NCBI GenBank assembly: GCA_022796475.1
Contig: JAAWIS010000021.1
Coordinates: 1 to 47,825 of the forward strand
Direction: 5' to 3'
From: Lachnospiraceae bacterium
GTDB taxonomy: Bacteria; Bacillota; Clostridia; Lachnospirales; Lachnospiraceae
DNA length: 47,825 nt
Under the pieces are notes generated by a model that saw only the letters and a list, made by a program, of their open reading frames with translations, did no database searches and was not told where the DNA came from. The stretch's first letter is position 1. Each line of letters opens with the position of its first letter. Both the position numbers and the translations under genes were made by a program. Positions 15,143 through 45,923 of the stretch are shown piece by piece.

Positions 15143-16274
15143 TTAGTCCTGCCCGCGTTTATCCGGACATCCTAAACTAAGCCACTTTAAATATTCACTG
15201 ATAAAAATGTCAATCCCTCCGTCCAGCACATGATCCGCATTTCCGCTTTCTGCTCCGGTCCGGTGATCCTTTACCATGGTATACGGCTGAAGTACATAGG
15301 AACGAATCTGGTTTCCCCAGCCAATTTCCTTTACATCGCCCCGGATATCGGAAATCTTTTCTGCATTTTCCTGCTGCTTTAAAAGAAGAAGCTTCGTTTT
15401 TAACATCTGCATCGCCTTATCCTTATTTTGGAACTGGGAACGCTCATTCTGACAGGTTACCACAATTCCCGTTGGAATATGAGTAATTCGGATAGCTGAG
15501 GAGGTTTTATTAATATGCTGCCCACCGGCGCCGCTGGAGCGGTAAGTATCAATACGCAGATCATCCATGTTAATTTCTACATCTAAGTCTTCTTCAATAT
15601 CCGGCATTACATCACAGGAAACGAAAGATGTCTGACGCTTTCCCGCAGCATTAAAAGGCGAGATCCGCACCAAACGGTGAACGCCTCTCTCTGACTTCAG
15701 ATAACCGAATACATTTTCCCCATTAATCTGAATCGTTACTGATTTAATGCCTGCCTCTTCCCCGTCTAAAAAGTCCAGTACCTCTGTGGTAAAGCCTCTG
15801 CTGTCTGCCCATCGGCAGTACATCCGGTAAAGCATACTGCACCAGTCACAAGATTCCGTGCCTCCGGCTCCTGCATTCAGACGCAAAATCGCATTGCAGT
15901 TATCGTACTCGCCATTCAGCAGCGTGCCAATTCTCATCTTTTCCAGTTTTTCTGCAAAATTATCCAGCATCTCCTGGATCTCCGGAATTAAATCTGCATC
16001 ATTTTCTTCGTACCCCATCTCGATCATAAGGCCGATTTCTTCATACGCTGTTTCTAATTTTTGGAACCCTTCTACGGTATCTTTTAAATGTTTTGCTTCC
16101 TTCATCAGCTTTGTGGACTTGTCCGCGTCGTCCCAAAAGCCAGGTTCCTCCATACTTTTATCCAGTTCGTCAATTCTCCTTAACTTATGATCTAAGTCAA
16201 AGTGAATCCCTCACTTCCACTAATGGTTTTTCATACGTTGATAACGTATATTTGAATTGATCGAATTCAACCAC
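15143..16274 (-). CDS. prfB: Peptide chain release factor 2, with programmed +1 frameshift
   Basis: RF2 ends translation at UGA and UAA. The gene starts at a GTG (16272-16274) with GCAGGTG upstream, reads 25 codons (VVEFDQFKYTL...EVRDSL) and meets an in-frame TGA at 16197-16199. A +1 shift at CTT-TGA-C joins it to the downstream frame (DLDHKLRRIDEL...) that runs to 15143, giving about 376 residues in all. The GGQ motif for peptide release is in SSGAGGQHIN and the codon-recognition SPF motif is in RISPFN. Because the stop in the shift site is UGA, low RF2 favours shifting, a known autoregulation. It lies downstream of secA, the standard Firmicutes neighbourhood. Confidence 0.96.
16196..16210 (-). 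other. prfB programmed frameshift site
   Basis: Minus strand GGGATTCACTTTGAC. The slippery CTT codon at 16200-16202 is followed by TGA and C, the classic weak-stop context. An upstream GTGAGGGA can pair with the 3' end of 16S rRNA as the stimulatory element, though its distance to the CTT codon is slightly longer than in E. coli. Confidence 0.9.
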
Positions 16275-25765: not shown

Positions 25766-27127
25766 CTACGCAATAATCTGTTTTCGGCTCCATCTCCCAG
25801 TCAGATACCAGATAAAGGAAATCAAGAAATTCACGCCCCATCCCATAGGAATGGCATACCAGACAGCCTGAACGCCCCAGACAGGTGCAAACAAATTGGC
25901 TACCAATACACGAATTCCCAGATTTACTAAATTTGCTGCCATATAAATTGTTACGTCGCCAGATCCCCGAAGTACACCGTCAGTAGCCGCCTTAAGTCCG
26001 ATTAAGGCAAAAAACCAACTGATAAAACTTACGTAAGAATTGGCTGTGGAAAAAGCCAGGGGGCCGCTTTCCATGTTGATAAAAGCGGATATCATCTGCC
26101 TGTGGAATAAATTTAAAATCAGGCAGATTGCCGCGCCGAATATTCCTATCATGAAAAAGCTGCTTTTTAAACCCTTGCGGACCCGCTCAGGCTGCTTCGC
26201 TCCTAAATTTTGTGCCGTAAATGTGGAAACACCATTTCCCGTAGCAATCATGGGAACAATGCAGATCGACTCTATCCGGGTTCCGGCAGAATATCCGGCA
26301 AGCACTGACGAGCCGAAGCCATTTACTACCGACTGCACCAGAAGCATTCCGATGCTGACAATAGACTGCTGAACAATGGACGGAATTGCAATCCTCGTTC
26401 CCCGCACCAGCATATCCCGGTCATAACACGTTGCCTTCTGACCATCAGCTATGGGATAATGGTTCAGCTCCCTTAACAAAACCAGAAAGGAAATCACAGC
26501 AGAAAGACCCTGGGCTGCTACTGTGGCGATCGCTACGCCGGCTACTCCAAGCTGCCAGCCGATTACCATCCATAAGTCCAAAGCCACATTTAACACGGAA
26601 GAAAAGATAAGAAAATACAGGGGAATTCTGGATTTCCCCAGAGCATTAAACGTGGCGGAAAGCACATTGTACATAAAAAGAAAGGGAAGTCCCATAAAAT
26701 AAATCTGCAGATAAAGCACCGCATCTTCAAACACGTTATCTGGCGTTTTCAGTGCTTTCATAATCCAGGGATTCAGGAAAAATCCAAACAGTGCAAGCAC
26801 AATACTGACTGCTAAGAAATTAATTAGTGCCGTATAGGCAGAGGTACGCATTTTCCCATAGTCCTCTGCCCCAAGATACTGGCTGGTAAGAACGGAAGCG
26901 CCAATCCCGCCTCCAATAGCTATCATAATAAACACATTAGTAAAGGAATAGGAGGCCCCTACTGCCGCCAATGCCTCCTCCCCTACATAACGCCCTACTA
27001 TAACAGAGTCTGCCATATTATAAAACTGCTGGAACAAATTTCCTATAATCATGGGAAGGGAAAAGAAAAATAAAGTTTTTCCCGGTTTTCCCGTTAACAT
27101 TTGATTCGTTTTCATGTTCTTATTCAT
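25766..27127 (-). CDS. MATE-family efflux transporter
   Basis: 453 residues with twelve predicted membrane segments in two similar halves. The first half starts at GKTLFFFSLPMIIGNLFQQFYNMADSVIVGRYVG, a typical MATE opening. MATE proteins export drugs or metabolites in exchange for Na+ or H+. Its start overlaps the stop codon of the HicB-like gene by 8 nt, so the two are translationally linked; an ATG 12 nt further in is possible. Substrate unknown. Confidence 0.92.
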   Translation of the reverse strand: MNKNMKTNQMLTGKPGKTLFFFSLPMIIGNLFQQFYNMADSVIVGRYVGEEALAAVGASYSFTNVFIMIAIGGGIGASVLTSQYLGAEDYGKMRTSAYTALINFLAVSIVLALFGFFLNPWIMKALKTPDNVFEDAVLYLQIYFMGLPFLFMYNVLSATFNALGKSRIPLYFLIFSSVLNVALDLWMVIGWQLGVAGVAIATVAAQGLSAVISFLVLLRELNHYPIADGQKATCYDRDMLVRGTRIAIPSIVQQSIVSIGMLLVQSVVNGFGSSVLAGYSAGTRIESICIVPMIATGNGVSTFTAQNLGAKQPERVRKGLKSSFFMIGIFGAAICLILNLFHRQMISAFINMESGPLAFSTANSYVSFISWFFALIGLKAATDGVLRGSGDVTIYMAANLVNLGIRVLVANLFAPVWGVQAVWYAIPMGWGVNFLISFIWYLTGRWSRKQIIA

Positions 27128-27395
27128 ATCCGGGAACTAATTGGATCGTCATGGTCAGATATTTTACAATCTGTCCCTTTTCCAACATCAAATCATCTGC
27201 ATGGCTCAATTCAGGCAGATCATTTCCTTCCTCCATTTCTACCAGAATCCAGTCTGTAGCTGCTGCTCTGGCCTGATCCGCAGCGTCTTCAATCTCAGGT
27301 CCTTCTGCCGTACAGCCTTCCAAATCCGGAAAATATGCCTGATAGCCGCTCCCATCTTCTTTTTTTGAAAAAATTGCAGGATATACAATCTTCAT
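27120..27395 (-). CDS. HicB-like protein without a HicA partner
   Basis: About 91 residues. The sequence MKIVYPAIFSKKEDGSGYQAYFPDLEGCTAEG is the degraded-RNase-H fold of HicB antitoxins, and the following helix is EIEDAADQARAAATDWI. Known HicB proteins usually pair with a small HicA toxin upstream. Here the upstream neighbour is the ribosome GTPase-NYN fusion gene 53 nt away, and no HicA-sized frame lies between. There is also no obvious DNA-binding tail. It may be a solitary domain protein with another role. GGGAG precedes the chosen start. Confidence 0.85.
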   Translation of the reverse strand: MKIVYPAIFSKKEDGSGYQAYFPDLEGCTAEGPEIEDAADQARAAATDWILVEMEEGNDLPELSHADDLMLEKGQIVKYLTMTIQLVPGYE

Positions 27396-27448
27396 TCGCG
27401 CTCCCATCCTTTGTTTTTATAGTTTGTTTGATTTTTGTTTTCATCTAT

Positions 27449-30280
27449 CTAACTGTTTTTTTGTCTGGTTTCCCCAGTTTTTCCCTTTGTAGTTGGTCCG
27501 GTCTTTCCTTTTGTAACTTGTTCGGTTTTTCCTTTTGCAGCTTGTCCAGACTTTGCCTTTATCGTTTCTTCCGTTTTCCCTGCTGCTTCCAAAAAAGCCG
27601 CTGTTTCAGAGTCAACTTCCTGAAACAAAAGGTTTTGCTTTCTATGAGGCTTTTCCAGATATTCTTCCCGCATTACCTGGTTAACCCGCTCGATCTCTTC
27701 TTTTAAGTCAGAGGCTGACATGCGAAGGCCGCCCTGACCAAGGATAATCACTTGTTCCAGTCCATCTGAAGTGGCAACAGTTACCCGGTACTGCTTTCCC
27801 AGCTCATGAACTACCTTTTCAATATATTGATCTGCCGTTTCTGCCTCTTTTGTATAAACGATATGGATATTGTGATAGGCCTGAACTTCACATCGGTGCC
27901 CTGCCACCCGGTAAGCATCAAACACCAAAATCAAATGGCACTTTTGAAACCCCTGATAATTGCATAAAATATCCATCAGGCGATGTCTGGCTCCATCCAA
28001 ATTTGTTTTCGCCAGTTCTTTTAATTCTTCCCAGGAAAAGATAATATTATATCCGTCAACTAAAAGATACTCCTCCTTCGGTTCTGTATGCTTCCATACC
28101 CGCTCTTTTAGTCCGTTCCTTCCCGACAGCCCGCCTCCATGCTGCCGTTTTCCTTGCAGCTCCTGTTTATTTTTGCTTCCCTTGTAAGTCCGCGCAAAAA
28201 TTTCTTCCAGTTCCTTATCCATTTCCAATGAACCGGAATATTGATCCCCCAGGCTTCGTCTGACAGCATCCTTCCCGCCATCCTCCCTCTGATGATCCTG
28301 TTCTGACTCATTTTGTTTTTCTTCACTCTGTCCAAAACCGCTGTCAACATGCATATAATTCTCTACCTGATGCCATGGGACGATAAAGCCTGCCCCATGA
28401 GAACAAAAAACAGAATCTGGCGTATTCTCTAAATCCAGCTCCGGATCATAGCCGGAATCTGCCAGCACTTCTGCTTCCCTATGGCAGGGTTCATATCCTT
28501 TCATCGTACAGAATAATCTTCCCAGTCCCTTAGAATAAGCAGCTACCTGGCTTTGATAGCCCCGCATTTCCTCCACAGGGGCGCTTCCTGTCAAGACAGC
28601 CTGGACTCCATCCTGTCTGGGCGCTTCAAAAGTTCCGCTCATCTTCTGAATATCCGACATAGCACGTCCTACATACTCTGCCGGAATCTCCAGGCGGAAC
28701 TGATAATAAGGCTCCAGCAATATGCTTTTCGCCTTCATCAGCCCCTGGCGGACTGCCCGGTAAGTAGCTTGGCGAAAATCACCGCCTTCCGTATGCTTTT
28801 GATGAGCTTTTCCTGCAATAACTGTAATTTTGATATCAGTAATTCCGCTTCCTGTCAAAACACCTTTGTGTTCCCGTTCTTCCAGATGGGTGAGTATCAG
28901 CCTTTGCCAATTCCGGTCCAGAATATCTTCGCTGCAGGAAGCGAAAAACTGCATCCCGCTTCCCCGCTCTCCCGGTTCCAGCAAAAGATGCACTTCTGCA
29001 TAATGGCGCAAAGGCTCAAAATGCCCAATGCCCTCCACCGGTTCCAGAATCGTTTCTTTATATACGATATGGCCTGGCCCAAAATCCGCCTTTACCCCAA
29101 ACCGCTCCTCAATTAAATTTTTCAGTACCTCAATCTGGACTTCGCCCATTAACTGAGCATAGATTTCATTTAATTGCGGATCCCATAAAACATGGAGAAG
29201 TGGTTCTTCCTCTTCCAACTGACGCATATTTCCAAGCATTTGATGGATATCGCAATCTTCCGGAAATATAATCTGAAACAGCAGGACTGGTTCCAATACC
29301 GGCATATCAGAAGCTGTTTCTTTCCCAAGTCCCTGCCCGGCATACGTTTTTGTCAGCCCTGTTACTGCACACACACTCCCTGCCGTCACTTGACTGACTG
29401 CCTGGAATTTTGCACCGGAATAAATCCGGATCTGGTTTACTTTCTCTTCTTCTGTTATGCTGTCTTTAACCTGCAGGCTGCCTCCGGTGATCTTCATATG
29501 CGTCAGGCGTCCTCCTTGAGGATCCCTGGTTATTTTAAATACCTTCGCTCCAAATTCCTGAGGATAGCTCTGCTTTTTTGTATAGCCTAAGATTCCTTTT
29601 AGAAATCCCTCCACCCCATCCAGCTTTAGAGCGGAACCAAAATAGCAGGGAAACACCTTCCGCTTCCACACCAGTTCCCGGATCTCTTCTTCTTCAATGC
29701 ATCCCTTCTCCAGATACTGTTCCAGCAGTTCTTCATCGCACATAGCCAGATTTTCATAAAACTCTTTCCATGCCTCTTGAGAAGTCCTCTCCTCCTTTTT
29801 CAAACCGCAAAGAGAAAAATCCACACACCGTTCATCCAGCCTCTTTTGAAGCTCATCCAAAAGTAGTTTTTGATCGGTGCCTTCCTGATCCATCTTATTG
29901 ATAAATAAAAATACTGGTATTTGATATCTGTTAAGCAGCTTCCACAGAGTCAGTGTATGAGCCTGGATTCCGTCTGAACCGCTAATTACCAAAATTCCGT
30001 AATCCAAAACTTGAAGCGTCCGCTCCATTTCTGCCGAAAAGTCCACATGTCCCGGCGTATCTAACAGAGTGATCTCTGTTTCTCCCAGAGAAAATACCGC
30101 TTGTTTTGAAAAGATCGTAATTCCTCTGGCCCGCTCCATTTCATATGAGTCCAGGAAGGCATCTCCATAGTCAACTCGCCCCAAAGTCCGCAAGTATCCG
30201 CTAACGTAAAGCATAGCCTCAGAAAGAGTAGTTTTTCCTGCGTCTACATGGGCCAATATTCCTATCACTAATTGTTTCAT
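27449..30280 (-). CDS. TetM/EF-G-like ribosome GTPase fused to a NYN (Rae1/YacP-like) nuclease
   Basis: 943 residues from the ATG at 30280 (GGAGAAAA upstream; a longer frame has no site). Residues 1-640 follow the TetM/TetO ribosomal-protection plan: GTPase motifs AHVDAGKT 10-17, DTPGH 74-78, NKMD 128-131, SAL 216-218, then EF-G domains II-V, ending like TetM at KGYEPCH. A polar, charged linker covers about 640-735. From YLLVDGYNIIFSW (738-750) to about 875 there is a NYN/PIN-like domain with acidic residues D742, D788 (FDAY), D817 (ETADQYIEK) and D839 (ATSD), matching YacP/Rae1, an mRNA endonuclease acting in the ribosomal A site of B. subtilis. The tail has KGKT repeats. I infer a factor that enters the A site with the GTPase and cuts mRNA there. 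Tetracycline resistance is possible but unproven. Confidence 0.9.
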   Translation of the reverse strand: MKQLVIGILAHVDAGKTTLSEAMLYVSGYLRTLGRVDYGDAFLDSYEMERARGITIFSKQAVFSLGETEITLLDTPGHVDFSAEMERTLQVLDYGILVISGSDGIQAHTLTLWKLLNRYQIPVFLFINKMDQEGTDQKLLLDELQKRLDERCVDFSLCGLKKEERTSQEAWKEFYENLAMCDEELLEQYLEKGCIEEEEIRELVWKRKVFPCYFGSALKLDGVEGFLKGILGYTKKQSYPQEFGAKVFKITRDPQGGRLTHMKITGGSLQVKDSITEEEKVNQIRIYSGAKFQAVSQVTAGSVCAVTGLTKTYAGQGLGKETASDMPVLEPVLLFQIIFPEDCDIHQMLGNMRQLEEEEPLLHVLWDPQLNEIYAQLMGEVQIEVLKNLIEERFGVKADFGPGHIVYKETILEPVEGIGHFEPLRHYAEVHLLLEPGERGSGMQFFASCSEDILDRNWQRLILTHLEEREHKGVLTGSGITDIKITVIAGKAHQKHTEGGDFRQATYRAVRQGLMKAKSILLEPYYQFRLEIPAEYVGRAMSDIQKMSGTFEAPRQDGVQAVLTGSAPVEEMRGYQSQVAAYSKGLGRLFCTMKGYEPCHREAEVLADSGYDPELDLENTPDSVFCSHGAGFIVPWHQVENYMHVDSGFGQSEEKQNESEQDHQREDGGKDAVRRSLGDQYSGSLEMDKELEEIFARTYKGSKNKQELQGKRQHGGGLSGRNGLKERVWKHTEPKEEYLLVDGYNIIFSWEELKELAKTNLDGARHRLMDILCNYQGFQKCHLILVFDAYRVAGHRCEVQAYHNIHIVYTKEAETADQYIEKVVHELGKQYRVTVATSDGLEQVIILGQGGLRMSASDLKEEIERVNQVMREEYLEKPHRKQNLLFQEVDSETAAFLEAAGKTEETIKAKSGQAAKGKTEQVTKGKTGPTTKGKTGETRQKNS

Positions 30281-30344
30281 TTTTCTCCTGCTTCTATTCC
30301 ATAATCCAACAATCCATGTATCTGTCTGCCAATAATCTGCAACC

Positions 30345-30378
30345 AAAAACCTCCCGGGGTGCCACCTGAGAGGTTTTT
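30345..30378 (-). terminator. Terminator hairpin with T-box-like sequence, ahead of the GTPase-NYN gene
   Basis: Minus strand: AAAAACCTCTC, loop AGGTGGCACCCC, GGGAGGTTTTT. The stem has 11 pairs on the minus strand, one a wobble that would be a mismatch on the plus strand, so it serves minus-strand RNA. The loop sequence AGGTGGCACCCCG resembles the conserved T-box motif (GGTGGNACCNCG). It lies between the kinase gene and the GTPase-NYN gene, about 65 nt before the latter. A full T-box stem I would have to lie inside the kinase gene, so this may be a plain terminator or a T-box remnant. Confidence 0.6.
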
Positions 30379-33213: not shown

Positions 33214-33693
33214 ATGGACAGCAGTTTTTATCTTGTTGTTGCAGGAATTTCACTGGTATTTGTTCTTTTAATTGCCTTTGTTGCATGGACCTTTTTCAGC
33301 CGTTATAAGCGGCTTGGCACTGTGCTGAACCGGGCTCATGAAATGACCAAGACTGCCACCGGAACCATCAGTGAAATTGTAACTGTGACCCGAAGGAACC
33401 GGTCCTTCCGCTGGAAAAACGAATACCCGGTCATCTCTTTCGCCGCAAATGGAAAGCAGTATACGGTACATATGGACTGGGCAGAAAAACGAAAAGGCCA
33501 CTATGATTTAGGCGGAACCTATAAGGTTTGCTATGTTCCGGCAGATCCCGGCTGCTGCGTTGTTGAAGAATTCCGTAAAACCATGCAGAAAACCAGAACC
33601 CAAAGCCTGATTTGGACTGTGGTTTTCGGACTTGTGGCGTTAAACATGCTGTTTAGCATTATTCTCCAAACAATTACATCAATTGCTGGTTAA
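33214..33693 (+). CDS. DUF3592-like small membrane protein
   Basis: 159 residues. An N-terminal membrane segment (about 6-28) and a C-terminal one (about 133-153) flank a soluble beta-rich middle with PVISFAANGKQYTVH and GGTYKVCYVPADPGCCVVEEF. This layout and the YxPxxP-like turn match DUF3592, a family of unknown function. GGAGG stands 9 nt before the ATG. The next gene starts about 70 nt later on the same strand. Confidence 0.65.
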   Translation: MDSSFYLVVAGISLVFVLLIAFVAWTFFSRYKRLGTVLNRAHEMTKTATGTISEIVTVTRRNRSFRWKNEYPVISFAANGKQYTVHMDWAEKRKGHYDLGGTYKVCYVPADPGCCVVEEFRKTMQKTRTQSLIWTVVFGLVALNMLFSIILQTITSIAG

Positions 33694-33760
33694 AATACCA
33701 CACTTTTTTTGCACTCCTTTCATATTCTACATTACATGTATGAATATAAAGGAGTGCTTT

Positions 33761-35185
33761 ATGCTGGAAACCATAACCATCCTGACCCCGCTCCACTATT
33801 TGTATCTGGTTGGGGTTATTGTTATTTTAGGCGTCATGATCCTGCGGAAAGATACCCCTGCTGTCTGCCTTGGGTTTCTTTTTCTTCTGGGCATTGCAGG
33901 AAGCGGAAATGTAATTGGCGGAATTCAAACTGTTTTCAGCGCCATGCTTTATGCTGCAAAAGAATTTATGGAAGTAATCGCAACCATTGCTCTGGTAACC
34001 GCCCTTTCAGGATGCCTAAGTGATTTAGGCAGCGACTATCTGTTAATGCGTCCCATGGGAAAAATTATGAAAACCCCTTCTGTTACCTGGTGGATTCTGG
34101 GTCTTACCATGCTTATTTTCTCATTATTTTTATGGCCTTCCCCTTCTGTGGCCCTGGTAGGCGCTATTATGCTGCCATTTGCTGTCCGGACCGGGTTAAA
34201 CCCGCTTTTTGCTGCAATGGCTATGAATTTATTCGGCCATGGAATTGCTTTAAGCTATGATCTGGTAATACAGGGAGCGCCTGCCATATCTGCAGGAGCT
34301 GCCGGAATTTCGGCCAGCCAAATTCTTACGGAGGGCAGACCGGTGTTTCTGGTTATGGGCGCTGCCACCGTTCTTTCTGCTTTTCTCCTTAACCGCAAAT
34401 ATATGTACGGAGAGCGGGTAACCATAAACCAGGCCGCTCCTGGCCAAACGCCAAACTTACCATCCGATTCCAATACTCCCGGCAGCACCCGCCCGGCTCT
34501 CATTCTGGCAGTGGCTACCCCTCTTGCTTTCCTGGCCGATATTGCCGCCATGTTTGCCTTTCACCTTCGCGGAGGAGATGCCACCAGCCTGGTTTCCGGC
34601 ACAGCCGTCCTCCTTATGTGCTTCGGTTCCATTCTTGGTTTTGGAAAATCTTCCCTTGAGAGAATTACTGGTTATCTGACCGACGGCTTTCTATTCGCCA
34701 TCCGGATCTTTGCCCCGGTTATTGCTATCGGCGCATTTTTCTTCCTGGGCGGAGAAGGAATCTCAGCGATTATGGGAGGTGCCGAAGTTTCTCAGATTCT
34801 TGGAAACGCTTCTACCGGAGGCATTATGAATGACTGGGCCGTGTGGCTTGCTTCCCATGCTCCCTTAAACAAATATCTGATCGGAGGAATTCAGTTAGCC
34901 ATCGGCGCATTAACTGGTCTTGACGGTTCCGGCTTTTCCGGCCTTCCCCTTACCGGTTCACTGGCCAGCACCTTTGGCGCTGCTGTAGGCGCTTCCGTTC
35001 CGGTTCTGGCTTCTCTCGGTCAGATTGCCGCTATCTTTGTGGGCGGCGGAACTATCGTTCCCTGGGGCCTGATTCCTGTTGCCGCTATCTGCAACGTAAA
35101 CCCCTTGGATCTGGCCCGAAAAAATCTGCTTCCCGTTTTTATTGGATTCCTGTGTGCATTTATAACAGCCTGCTTTTTGCTGTAG
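33761..35185 (+). CDS. Polytopic membrane protein, probable transporter of unassigned family
   Basis: About 474 residues with around eleven hydrophobic segments. I do not recognise the family firmly. The pattern of two halves, with helix breaks such as WPSPSVALVGAIMLPFAV and GALTGLDGSGFSGLPLTGSLASTFG, resembles ion-transporter superfamily carriers such as GntP, NhaC or CitM proteins. A polar ~20-residue loop rich in Pro and Asn lies near the middle (GQTPNLPSDSNTPGSTRP). AAGGAG lies 7 nt before the ATG at 33761; the frame extends further upstream without a ribosome site. It lies between the DUF3592 gene and asnB, all in the same direction. Confidence 0.7.
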   Translation: MLETITILTPLHYLYLVGVIVILGVMILRKDTPAVCLGFLFLLGIAGSGNVIGGIQTVFSAMLYAAKEFMEVIATIALVTALSGCLSDLGSDYLLMRPMGKIMKTPSVTWWILGLTMLIFSLFLWPSPSVALVGAIMLPFAVRTGLNPLFAAMAMNLFGHGIALSYDLVIQGAPAISAGAAGISASQILTEGRPVFLVMGAATVLSAFLLNRKYMYGERVTINQAAPGQTPNLPSDSNTPGSTRPALILAVATPLAFLADIAAMFAFHLRGGDATSLVSGTAVLLMCFGSILGFGKSSLERITGYLTDGFLFAIRIFAPVIAIGAFFFLGGEGISAIMGGAEVSQILGNASTGGIMNDWAVWLASHAPLNKYLIGGIQLAIGALTGLDGSGFSGLPLTGSLASTFGAAVGASVPVLASLGQIAAIFVGGGTIVPWGLIPVAAICNVNPLDLARKNLLPVFIGFLCAFITACFLL

Positions 35186-44525: not shown

Positions 44526-45923
44526 ATGAGTACATTCATCAGTATTATCGGATTATTTTTGGCGCTGTTCCTTTTAATCTATCTGGCATTTAAAGGCCAT
44601 AGCGTTATTATCATCGCACCTATTGTTGCTATGGTAGCCGTAATATTTTCATCTGGCGGCAATGCTCATCTTATGGCAGACTACACAGAAACCTATATGA
44701 TCGGATTTGCCAATTATGCTAAAAGTTATTTTCCATTGTATTTATTCGGCGCAGTATTTGCAAAAATTATGGAGGTATCCGGATATGCAGATGCTGTTTC
44801 ACATGTGATTGCAAAAAAATTGGGCAAAGAAAAAGCCATTTTATCTGTGGTCCTCTGCTGTGCGATCCTGACCTATGGCGGCGTATCCTTATTCGTAGTA
44901 ACCTTTGTGGTGCTTCCTATTGCAATCTCTCTGTTCCGTCAGGCTGATATCCCAAAAAGACTGATTCCAGGCTCCATAGCCCTTGGCGCATTTACTTTTA
45001 CCATGACCGCTATGCCTGGATCCCCGCAGGTTCAAAATACCATTCCCATGACTTATTTCGGAACAGATGCCTTTGCCGCCCCAGTACTGGGAATCCTTGC
45101 ATCGATTCTGATATTTGGTTTTGGTATGCTGTGGCTTACCAAACGTGAAAAATCAGCCCGCAGCAAAGGAGAAGGGTACGGCAGTCATGTAGATGACAGC
45201 AAGGATCTTGCTGCTTCTGAGAAAGAGCTTCCCAGCATTCTCCATCCAGTCATTGCATTTTTACTTATCGTAGGCGTAAACTTGCTCTTTTCAAAAGTGT
45301 ACTATCCGGGTTCAGATGCAGCGTACCTGGAGCAATACGGAACAAAACTCAGCGCTGTGTCCGGTAACTGGTCCGTACTGATCGCCCTTTTGGCTGCCAG
45401 CATTTACCTGATTCTTGTAAGCCTGCCCCGCCTTCAGAAGAGCTTAAAAGGAGATTTAAAAACAGCCGCTTCCAATTCGCTGATGCCGCTGATCAATTCC
45501 TGTGCCGTTGTGGGATTCGGCGCAGTCATTAAAGGCCTGGCTATTTTCGGAATCATTCAGGCATTTATATTGTCAATTTCTGCTAATCCACTGGCTTCAG
45601 AAATTCTGGCTGTAAATCTTCTTTGTGGCATGACAGCCTCTGCTTCCGGAGGCTTAGGGGCAACCTTAGAAGCTTTGGCTCCTACATTTATCAATGCCGG
45701 CGCAAAAATAGGCATCGGGCCGGAAGTGCTTCACCGGGTTGCATCGATCTCCTCCGGCGGTCTGGACTCCCTTCCCCACAATGGTGCCACTGTTACCACC
45801 TTGTCACTGTGCAATATTAACCATAAAGAAGGATACCTGGATATGTTTGTCTGTTCTGTGGCAATCCCTATCGGCACAGCAATCATCATTGCTATATTGG
45901 CATCTCTTGGTATCCGGTGCTAG
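44526..45923 (+). CDS. GntP-family permease
   Basis: 465 residues with about twelve hydrophobic segments. The GntP family carries gluconate and related sugar acids or short hydroxy acids by proton symport. Matching segments are AILTYGGVSLFVVTFVVLPIAISLF, AFTFTMTAMPGSPQVQNTIP and the C-terminal SSGGLDSLPHNGATVTTLSLC. The last is strongly conserved in the family. The stop codon TAG coincides with the first bases of a repeated element. The gene supplies the uptake step of the putative catabolic operon. GGAGGAAAT precedes the ATG. Confidence 0.92.
   Translation: MSTFISIIGLFLALFLLIYLAFKGHSVIIIAPIVAMVAVIFSSGGNAHLMADYTETYMIGFANYAKSYFPLYLFGAVFAKIMEVSGYADAVSHVIAKKLGKEKAILSVVLCCAILTYGGVSLFVVTFVVLPIAISLFRQADIPKRLIPGSIALGAFTFTMTAMPGSPQVQNTIPMTYFGTDAFAAPVLGILASILIFGFGMLWLTKREKSARSKGEGYGSHVDDSKDLAASEKELPSILHPVIAFLLIVGVNLLFSKVYYPGSDAAYLEQYGTKLSAVSGNWSVLIALLAASIYLILVSLPRLQKSLKGDLKTAASNSLMPLINSCAVVGFGAVIKGLAIFGIIQAFILSISANPLASEILAVNLLCGMTASASGGLGATLEALAPTFINAGAKIGIGPEVLHRVASISSGGLDSLPHNGATVTTLSLCNINHKEGYLDMFVCSVAIPIGTAIIIAILASLGIRC

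Follow-up and report, generated by a model that had tools for sequence, protein, structure and literature searches.

How does a nuclease of the A site reach the ribosome, and what could it gain from being carried on a translational GTPase? The question is raised by one gene in a stretch of 47,825 nucleotides from a Lachnospiraceae bacterium (assembly GCA_022796475.1, contig JAAWIS010000021.1, positions 1 to 47,825; the whole stretch is called the window from here on), whose product joins a GTPase of the elongation factor G (EF-G)/TetM type to a NYN domain of the Rae1/YacP type. The most probable answer, to which we would give a probability of about 0.6, is that this protein is the cell's Rae1, i.e., a ribosome-dependent mRNA endonuclease carried on a GTPase related to EF-G and the Tet proteins, and acting by the cycle proposed below. 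The fusion as such is not new: the available text of Atkinson 2015 (BMC Genomics, PMC4342817), the only searchable paper in which "NYN domain" and "tetracycline resistance" occur together, reports that in ten clostridial species Tet proteins have gained a NYN domain of the YacP-like type, and suggests that RNase activity forms part of a resistance mechanism. The literature search gave no later study of the fusion among the matches listed; Condon et al. 2018, on Rae1 distribution, lay outside its scope, and the replacement pattern described here may already be in print there. What is added here are the distribution counts, that replacement pattern, the compatibility with one origin and a linker motif.

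Architecture of the fused protein

The gene is complete, with 943 codons and a stop read from the ATG at 30280, and the length of its frame is not due to chance, because stop-free runs in 50 mononucleotide-shuffled windows did not exceed 261 codons (mean 167). A mechanical list of open reading frames (ORFs) gives an alternative start, TTG at 30346 (965 amino acids, aa), which is less likely to be the true one. An initial annotation, made before any database search, had proposed one 943-residue protein joining an EF-G-type factor to a NYN domain; translation and Pfam agree with it, and the comparison with databases showed the fusion to be real, widespread and, as said, previously reported. All the domains of the factor (G and II to V) are present, with the G motifs where they had been placed (residues 10-17, 74-78, 128-131 and 216-218), as expected of a translational GTPase of the EF2/EF-G superfamily, and a fold search with the whole model matched the GTPase part alone, whose fold is that of ribosome-bound EF-G and TetM.

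The NYN part, folded and searched separately from the GTPase part, matches YacP/Rae1 of Bacillus subtilis in fold, in sequence (E 1e-25) and by profile (E 3.7e-40), Rae1 being its nearest solved relative (PDB 5mq8, 5mq9), which supports the Rae1-like character first read from the sequence. Its match to NYN_YacP (PF05991) scores 178.2 bits, for a gathering cut-off of 24.6. The four acidic residues expected of such a domain (D742, D788, D817 and D839) stand at the positions initially given and are invariant, together with N745, K16, T17, D74-H78, N128, K129 and D131, in all 117 distinct full-length fused proteins aligned (that of the window and 116 relatives, one duplicate dropped). The same columns hold the four acids in 20/20 standalone NYN proteins, and the checked residues are kept in the 12 fused genes fetched from outside the class. 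From the match to the Rae1 fold, the four acids are predicted to cluster in space. Domain IV is the most conserved domain of the fused proteins (mean share of the commonest letter, 0.80); in EF-G and TetM it is the one that reaches the decoding site.

Apparent replacement of the standalone nuclease

How common is this protein, and does it coexist with the free nuclease? Carriers were sorted by type in hand tallies that rest on the matches listed, with at most eight candidates scored per genome in the family and at most five in the class. In the family of the window, NYN_YacP was found in 135/150 genomes, of which 126 carry the fused type (several of them cut by contig ends or with broken frames) and nine the standalone one, after inspection of frame length and odd cases; the remaining 15 also gave no GTPase at E 1e-60. 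At the level of the class it was found in 161/245 genomes, and in 86 of these (window included) the GTPase is part of a frame of 780 aa or more; they span 24 family-level groups and include two frames with an internal stop (G219 and G369), the latter being the only representative of its group (f27). At the level of the phylum there was a match in 147/299 genomes, 18 of them (window included) with frames of at least 850 aa, and 12 of these 18 lie outside the class. A complete fused gene is present in 76 of the 80 named loci kept (the best 80 of at least 588 confirmed relatives), in carriers such as Blautia, Mediterraneibacter, Faecalibacterium and Oscillibacter, and the closest named relatives among the matches listed are Lachnospiraceae (L092, L093). 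Blautia and Faecalibacterium are common gut bacteria. In several genomes the fused gene sits on chromosome-size contigs (e.g., 3.6 to 4.9 million bases), those of Agathobacter rectalis and Monoglobus sit on records called plasmids, and among the 1319 matching plasmid records there are 2 in which one place covers 80% of the protein.

No sampled genome of the family, class or phylum held a fused gene together with a complete standalone copy, with one ambiguous case (G039, where a second copy of ambiguous type is cut by a contig end). Of 20 standalone loci, 16 have the gene immediately behind rlmB, mostly preceded by mrnC and cysS, which is a usual arrangement and no strict rule (L099, the 21st, was excluded, its frame being a broken fused gene). 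Both mrnC and rlmB have roles in rRNA processing and modification. In the genome of the window (95.6% complete), rlmB was found by profile, preceded by genes that resemble ispF, cysS and mrnC by eye, and the gene that follows it is not yacP; the sole PF05991 match of that genome is the fused gene. An rlmB-like gene was present in the fetched stretch of 2/119 fused loci. Since no sampled genome showed both copies complete and yacP is absent after rlmB in the genome of the window, the fusion seems to have replaced Rae1: the simple reading is that the fused protein took over its role, and in a large group of bacteria it appears to do the work of Rae1. This makes the access of an A-site nuclease to the ribosome a testable question.

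Two NYN copies per genome were considered and rejected. Double matches occur in 3/135 family, 4/161 class and 3/147 phylum carriers, and most are second matches below the cut-off (G285, G350 and G390, E about 5e-4; G076, a short fragment) or pieces of one frame (G130, G399, G626). Apart from G039, the others are G609, with two standalone copies, and G282 (61% complete), with two fused ones. In another genome (G042, locus L197, 2017-4702) a change of frame within the linker, by sequencing error or by fission, divides the fused gene into two frames, one of 712 aa with the GTPase and one of 214 aa with the NYN domain.

Origin of the fusion and relation to the Tet proteins

A tree built from 68 GTPases places the 40 fused rows in a single group (support of 96 in the Shimodaira-Hasegawa-like approximate likelihood ratio test, SH-aLRT) that includes one unfused protein of Ligilactobacillus salivarius, and 16 unfused relatives make up the neighbouring group (support 80), one protein (L081) being unplaced. 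A tree in which the 40 fused rows were held together had a higher likelihood than the quick tree (approximately unbiased test, p-AU 0.919). For the NYN domain, the tree did not return the fused copies as strictly monophyletic (2 changes; 26% of 200 bootstrap trees show one group), and the claim was dropped; monophyly was not rejected once five long-branch rows were removed (p-AU 0.415), the NYN tree being poorly resolved. A single fusion event for both domains fits these results, which do not prove it. The L. salivarius protein is encoded on plasmid pHN3 (L193, 5986-7920) beside rpsN (S14), and looks as if its nuclease had been lost or never gained.

Is this a tetracycline resistance protein? 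TetM, TetO, TetS and TetW stand apart from the clade of the window (SH-aLRT support of the near clade 100, of the group with TetM/O/S/W 86), and the identity of the window's GTPase is about 30% to TetM, TetO and TetW and 45-52% in pairwise comparisons with seven unfused near relatives. Its best NCBIfam match, tet_protect, reaches 431.2 bits of a cut-off of 775, and the scores are also below the cut-off for the TetM/TetW model (301.2 bits vs 1100), Otr(A) (316.1 vs 900; the tree was built without named sequences of Tet B(P) or Otr(A)) and EF-G (TIGR00484, 302.3 bits vs 659.4). The loops at the tip of domain IV differ from those of TetM, loop III reading AHQKHTEGGDF in the window and YYSPVSTPADF in Tet(M/O/W), around S508-P509 of Tet(M). 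The missing loop sequence is no proof of inactivity, because a Tet(M) triple mutant in S508, P509 and V510 is still active according to the available text of PMC4750697. Nonetheless, a label of drug resistance is unsupported for a protein outside the TetM/O/S/W clade, below the Tet cut-off and without the loop III of TetM. The initial annotation stands for the fusion, the Rae1-like NYN domain and the EF-G/TetM fold, and finds no support where it called the protein TetM-like in the sense of resistance; the role in drug response that it had proposed loses ground for the failed cut-off, the different loop III and a neighbourhood that is not conserved.

The fused protein of Agathobacter rectalis (L194, 5980-8781) is annotated as a tetracycline resistance protein of the TetM/TetW/TetO/TetS family, a label that is probably misleading. 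For annotation this matters, since a widespread factor is publicly labelled as tetracycline resistance in that species though the protein of the window fails the curated test.

The linker and its motif

The two halves are joined by a linker of 65-205 aa in the 117 fused proteins, with pLDDT (predicted local distance difference test) values below 50 in residues 665-687 and 699-732 of the window's model. Within it lies a conserved short motif (Table 1), which in the form E[LIV]xxI[FILY]xxT is present in 99/117 fused linkers (105/117 for a looser pattern), as compared to averages of 0.03 and 1.7 matches, respectively, in 200 shuffles, a comparison to be taken as descriptive, the pattern having been derived from the same sequences and kin sequences being counted repeatedly. 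It was found in 0/20 tails of unfused GTPases and 0/20 standalone NYN proteins. A slightly different pattern also finds it in 6 of the 12 out-of-class fused genes, and five of the remaining six have another linker stretch in common. In five loci (L207, L208, L209, L212 and L213, group f127) the linker carries a stretch resembling YxQAVxANK instead of the described motif. The model shows a low-confidence helix at residues 686-699, and the motif (689-700) is probably helical; as a guess, it could dock to the ribosome or to a partner domain.

What the fused protein may do

The best reading of these data is a translation-quality factor that would bind stalled ribosomes and cut the mRNA in the A site, in place of Rae1. 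One factor that both hydrolyses GTP and cuts mRNA is plausible; we infer ribosome binding, recognition of stalls, mRNA cleavage, a hand-over between domains, the dependence of this hand-over on GTP and the coupling of GTPase and nuclease. In the proposed cycle, the GTP-bound GTPase would recognise paused ribosomes whose A site is open, and its domain IV would go into the decoding site to clear or probe the A site; GTP hydrolysis would free the GTPase from the ribosome, and the NYN domain, on its flexible tether of 65-205 residues, would then enter the vacated A site and cut the mRNA if the stall persists. Such an alternation is what cooperation would demand: since Tet-type factors overlap the A site (available text of PMC8161019) and Rae1, for which translation-dependent mRNA decay has been described, has been proposed to enter it, the halves cannot occupy it at once and must act in turn if they cooperate, which the long tether permits. 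Candidate targets of Rae1 named in PMC10632193 include S1025, yrzI and bmrC/bmrD.

Several observations weigh against this reading. The A site would be contested between domain IV and Rae1, and the relative placing of the two halves is not confident in the full-length model (predicted template modelling score, pTM, 0.57; mean pLDDT 81.9). By hand tally, NYN was not found in 7/19 genomes with an unfused GTPase of the near clade (some of the 19 with a partial or broken frame), nor such a GTPase in 4 of the 9 standalone-NYN genomes of the family (G007, G016, G020 and G068; G016 is 87% and G020 67% complete). Each part being thus found without its partner, neither needs the other. Furthermore, the neighbours of the fused genes are not conserved.

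In one alternative, two independent housekeeping activities, those of a ribosome-clearing GTPase and of Rae1, share one chain, being co-produced and co-localised, with no control of cutting by GTP hydrolysis. The long linker, mostly of low confidence in the model, and the separate occurrence of each part elsewhere (including those 7/19 genomes) are in its favour, but a single fused group kept across many families and a conserved linker motif suggest that the joining matters, and we consider it rather unlikely. A GTP-driven endonuclease of the A site can also be imagined, in which the Rae1 of most family members no longer finds stalls alone, the GTPase inspects and hands over the A site, and the linker motif docks on the ribosome or on either domain; this is tentative, with the odds against it. 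A drug-response factor, whose GTPase would remove tetracycline-like drugs from the A site while the NYN domain adds a nuclease step, as suggested in the available text of Atkinson 2015 (PMC4342817), can point to tet_protect as best NCBIfam match, to the family label of the A. rectalis protein and to a MATE gene two genes downstream in the window. It appears improbable for a protein scoring so far under 775 bits, without the TetM loop III sequence, found in 126/150 genomes of the family and covered to 80% in only 2 of the 1319 matching plasmid records, with neither attenuator nor neighbourhood conserved. Least probable of all, and with very little weight, is an enzyme of rRNA or tRNA maturation brought to ribosomal particles by its GTPase: NYN domains have been proposed for such tasks (Anantharaman and Aravind, as cited in the available text of PMC4342817) and standalone yacP adjoins mrnC and rlmB, but the closest solved relative is Rae1, described in translation-dependent mRNA decay.

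If the halves of the A-site factor favoured here are coupled, they would make up a natural system on a single chain, where mRNA cutting could be under the control of GTP hydrolysis on the ribosome, and would show the route of a nuclease into the A site.

Surroundings of the gene

The features of the locus are collected in Table 1. The hairpin upstream of the gene is most likely the terminator of the histidine kinase gene. A tet(M)-like attenuator or leader peptide was considered and dropped: the scan for a hairpin plus T run was positive in just 20/114 regions upstream of fused genes, and in 8/46 where the nearest upstream gene is not in tandem, which gives no conserved attenuator there. A drug-resistance island was also discarded, since conservation is lacking among the genes up to three places away; the most frequent cluster, which by eye resembles MATE, occurs within that distance in 12/117 fused loci (a set that excludes the window) and in seven of these lies at +2, on the strand of the fused gene. 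The HicB-like antitoxin-type gene stands in tandem with the fused gene and the MATE gene; a cluster resembling it (representative L093) is at +1 in 2/117 fused loci, and no HicA was seen among the neighbours in the window, where no profile search for HicA was made.

Table 1. Features of the fused gene and its surroundings in the window
Feature	Position	Strand	Basis
Fused translational GTPase and NYN (Rae1/YacP-like) endonuclease, 943 aa	27449..30280	-	translation, Pfam, structure model
GTPase (G) domain, residues 4-234	29579..30271	-	GTP_EFTU PF00009, E 5.8e-47; G motifs conserved
Domain II, residues 243-315	29336..29554	-	EF-G_D2 PF22042
Domain III, residues 330-401	29078..29293	-	EFG_III PF14492
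Domain IV, residues 404-518	28727..29071	-	EFG_IV PF03764
Domain V, residues 521-602	28475..28720	-	EFG_C PF00679
GTPase C-terminal module, residues 603-645 (SVFC.HG.GF...W..V..YMH)	28346..28474	-	alignment
Variable linker, residues 646-735	28076..28345	-	alignment and model
Conserved short linker motif KELEEIFARTYK, residues 689-700	28181..28216	-	pattern search
NYN_YacP (Rae1-like) nuclease domain, residues 739-898	27587..28066	-	Pfam
Codon of D742, predicted metal ligand	28055..28057	-	invariant 117/117
Codon of D788, predicted metal ligand	27917..27919	-	invariant 117/117
Codon of D817, predicted metal ligand	27830..27832	-	invariant 117/117
Codon of D839, predicted metal ligand	27764..27766	-	invariant 117/117
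Likely ribosome-binding site AGGAG before ATG 30280	30285..30289	-	sequence by eye
Intrinsic-terminator-like hairpin with T run, between upstream histidine kinase and fused gene	30346..30377	-	by eye
HicB-like protein, next gene downstream, same strand	27120..27407	-	PF15919; context only
MATE-family efflux protein	25766..27127	-	PF01554; context only

Elsewhere in the window, the gene for release factor 2 (15143-16153, minus strand) has a short upstream frame and the sequence CTTTGAC at 16196-16202, which we take to be the classic +1 programmed frameshift site, and two long ORFs on the plus strand (500 aa at 33683-35185 and 465 aa at 44526-45923) have no Pfam match (thresholds 1e-5 and 1e-6).

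Comparison with known systems

The protein of the window looks like one of the NYN-bearing (YacP-like) Tet proteins of clostridia in Atkinson 2015 (PMC4342817), with the same two-part architecture and lineage; unlike in the available text of that paper, where it is filed under the TetM/TetO-like group and counted in ten species, it appears here as far commoner, apart from TetM/O/S/W and in replacement of standalone Rae1. It is like the Rae1/YacP of B. subtilis (PDB 5mq8, 5mq9) in fold, catalytic residues and the usual single copy per genome, and differs from it in being fused to a GTPase and, in this genome, encoded away from rlmB. From Tet(M) and Tet(O) it is set apart by the identity of about 30%, the loops of domain IV, a score below the curated cut-off and the added nuclease domain. 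With EF-G it has the domains, G motifs and overall fold in common, its identity being 25-28% to the two EF-G-type proteins of its own genome (as EF-G, one of these reaches 1130 bits). Its nearest GTPase relatives are the unfused proteins of Clostridia and L. salivarius (labelled by NCBI as translation factor GTPase family or TetM/TetW/TetO/TetS family), which share its C-terminal module but end at about the YMH motif of that module (residues 603-645), with neither the linker motif nor the NYN domain.
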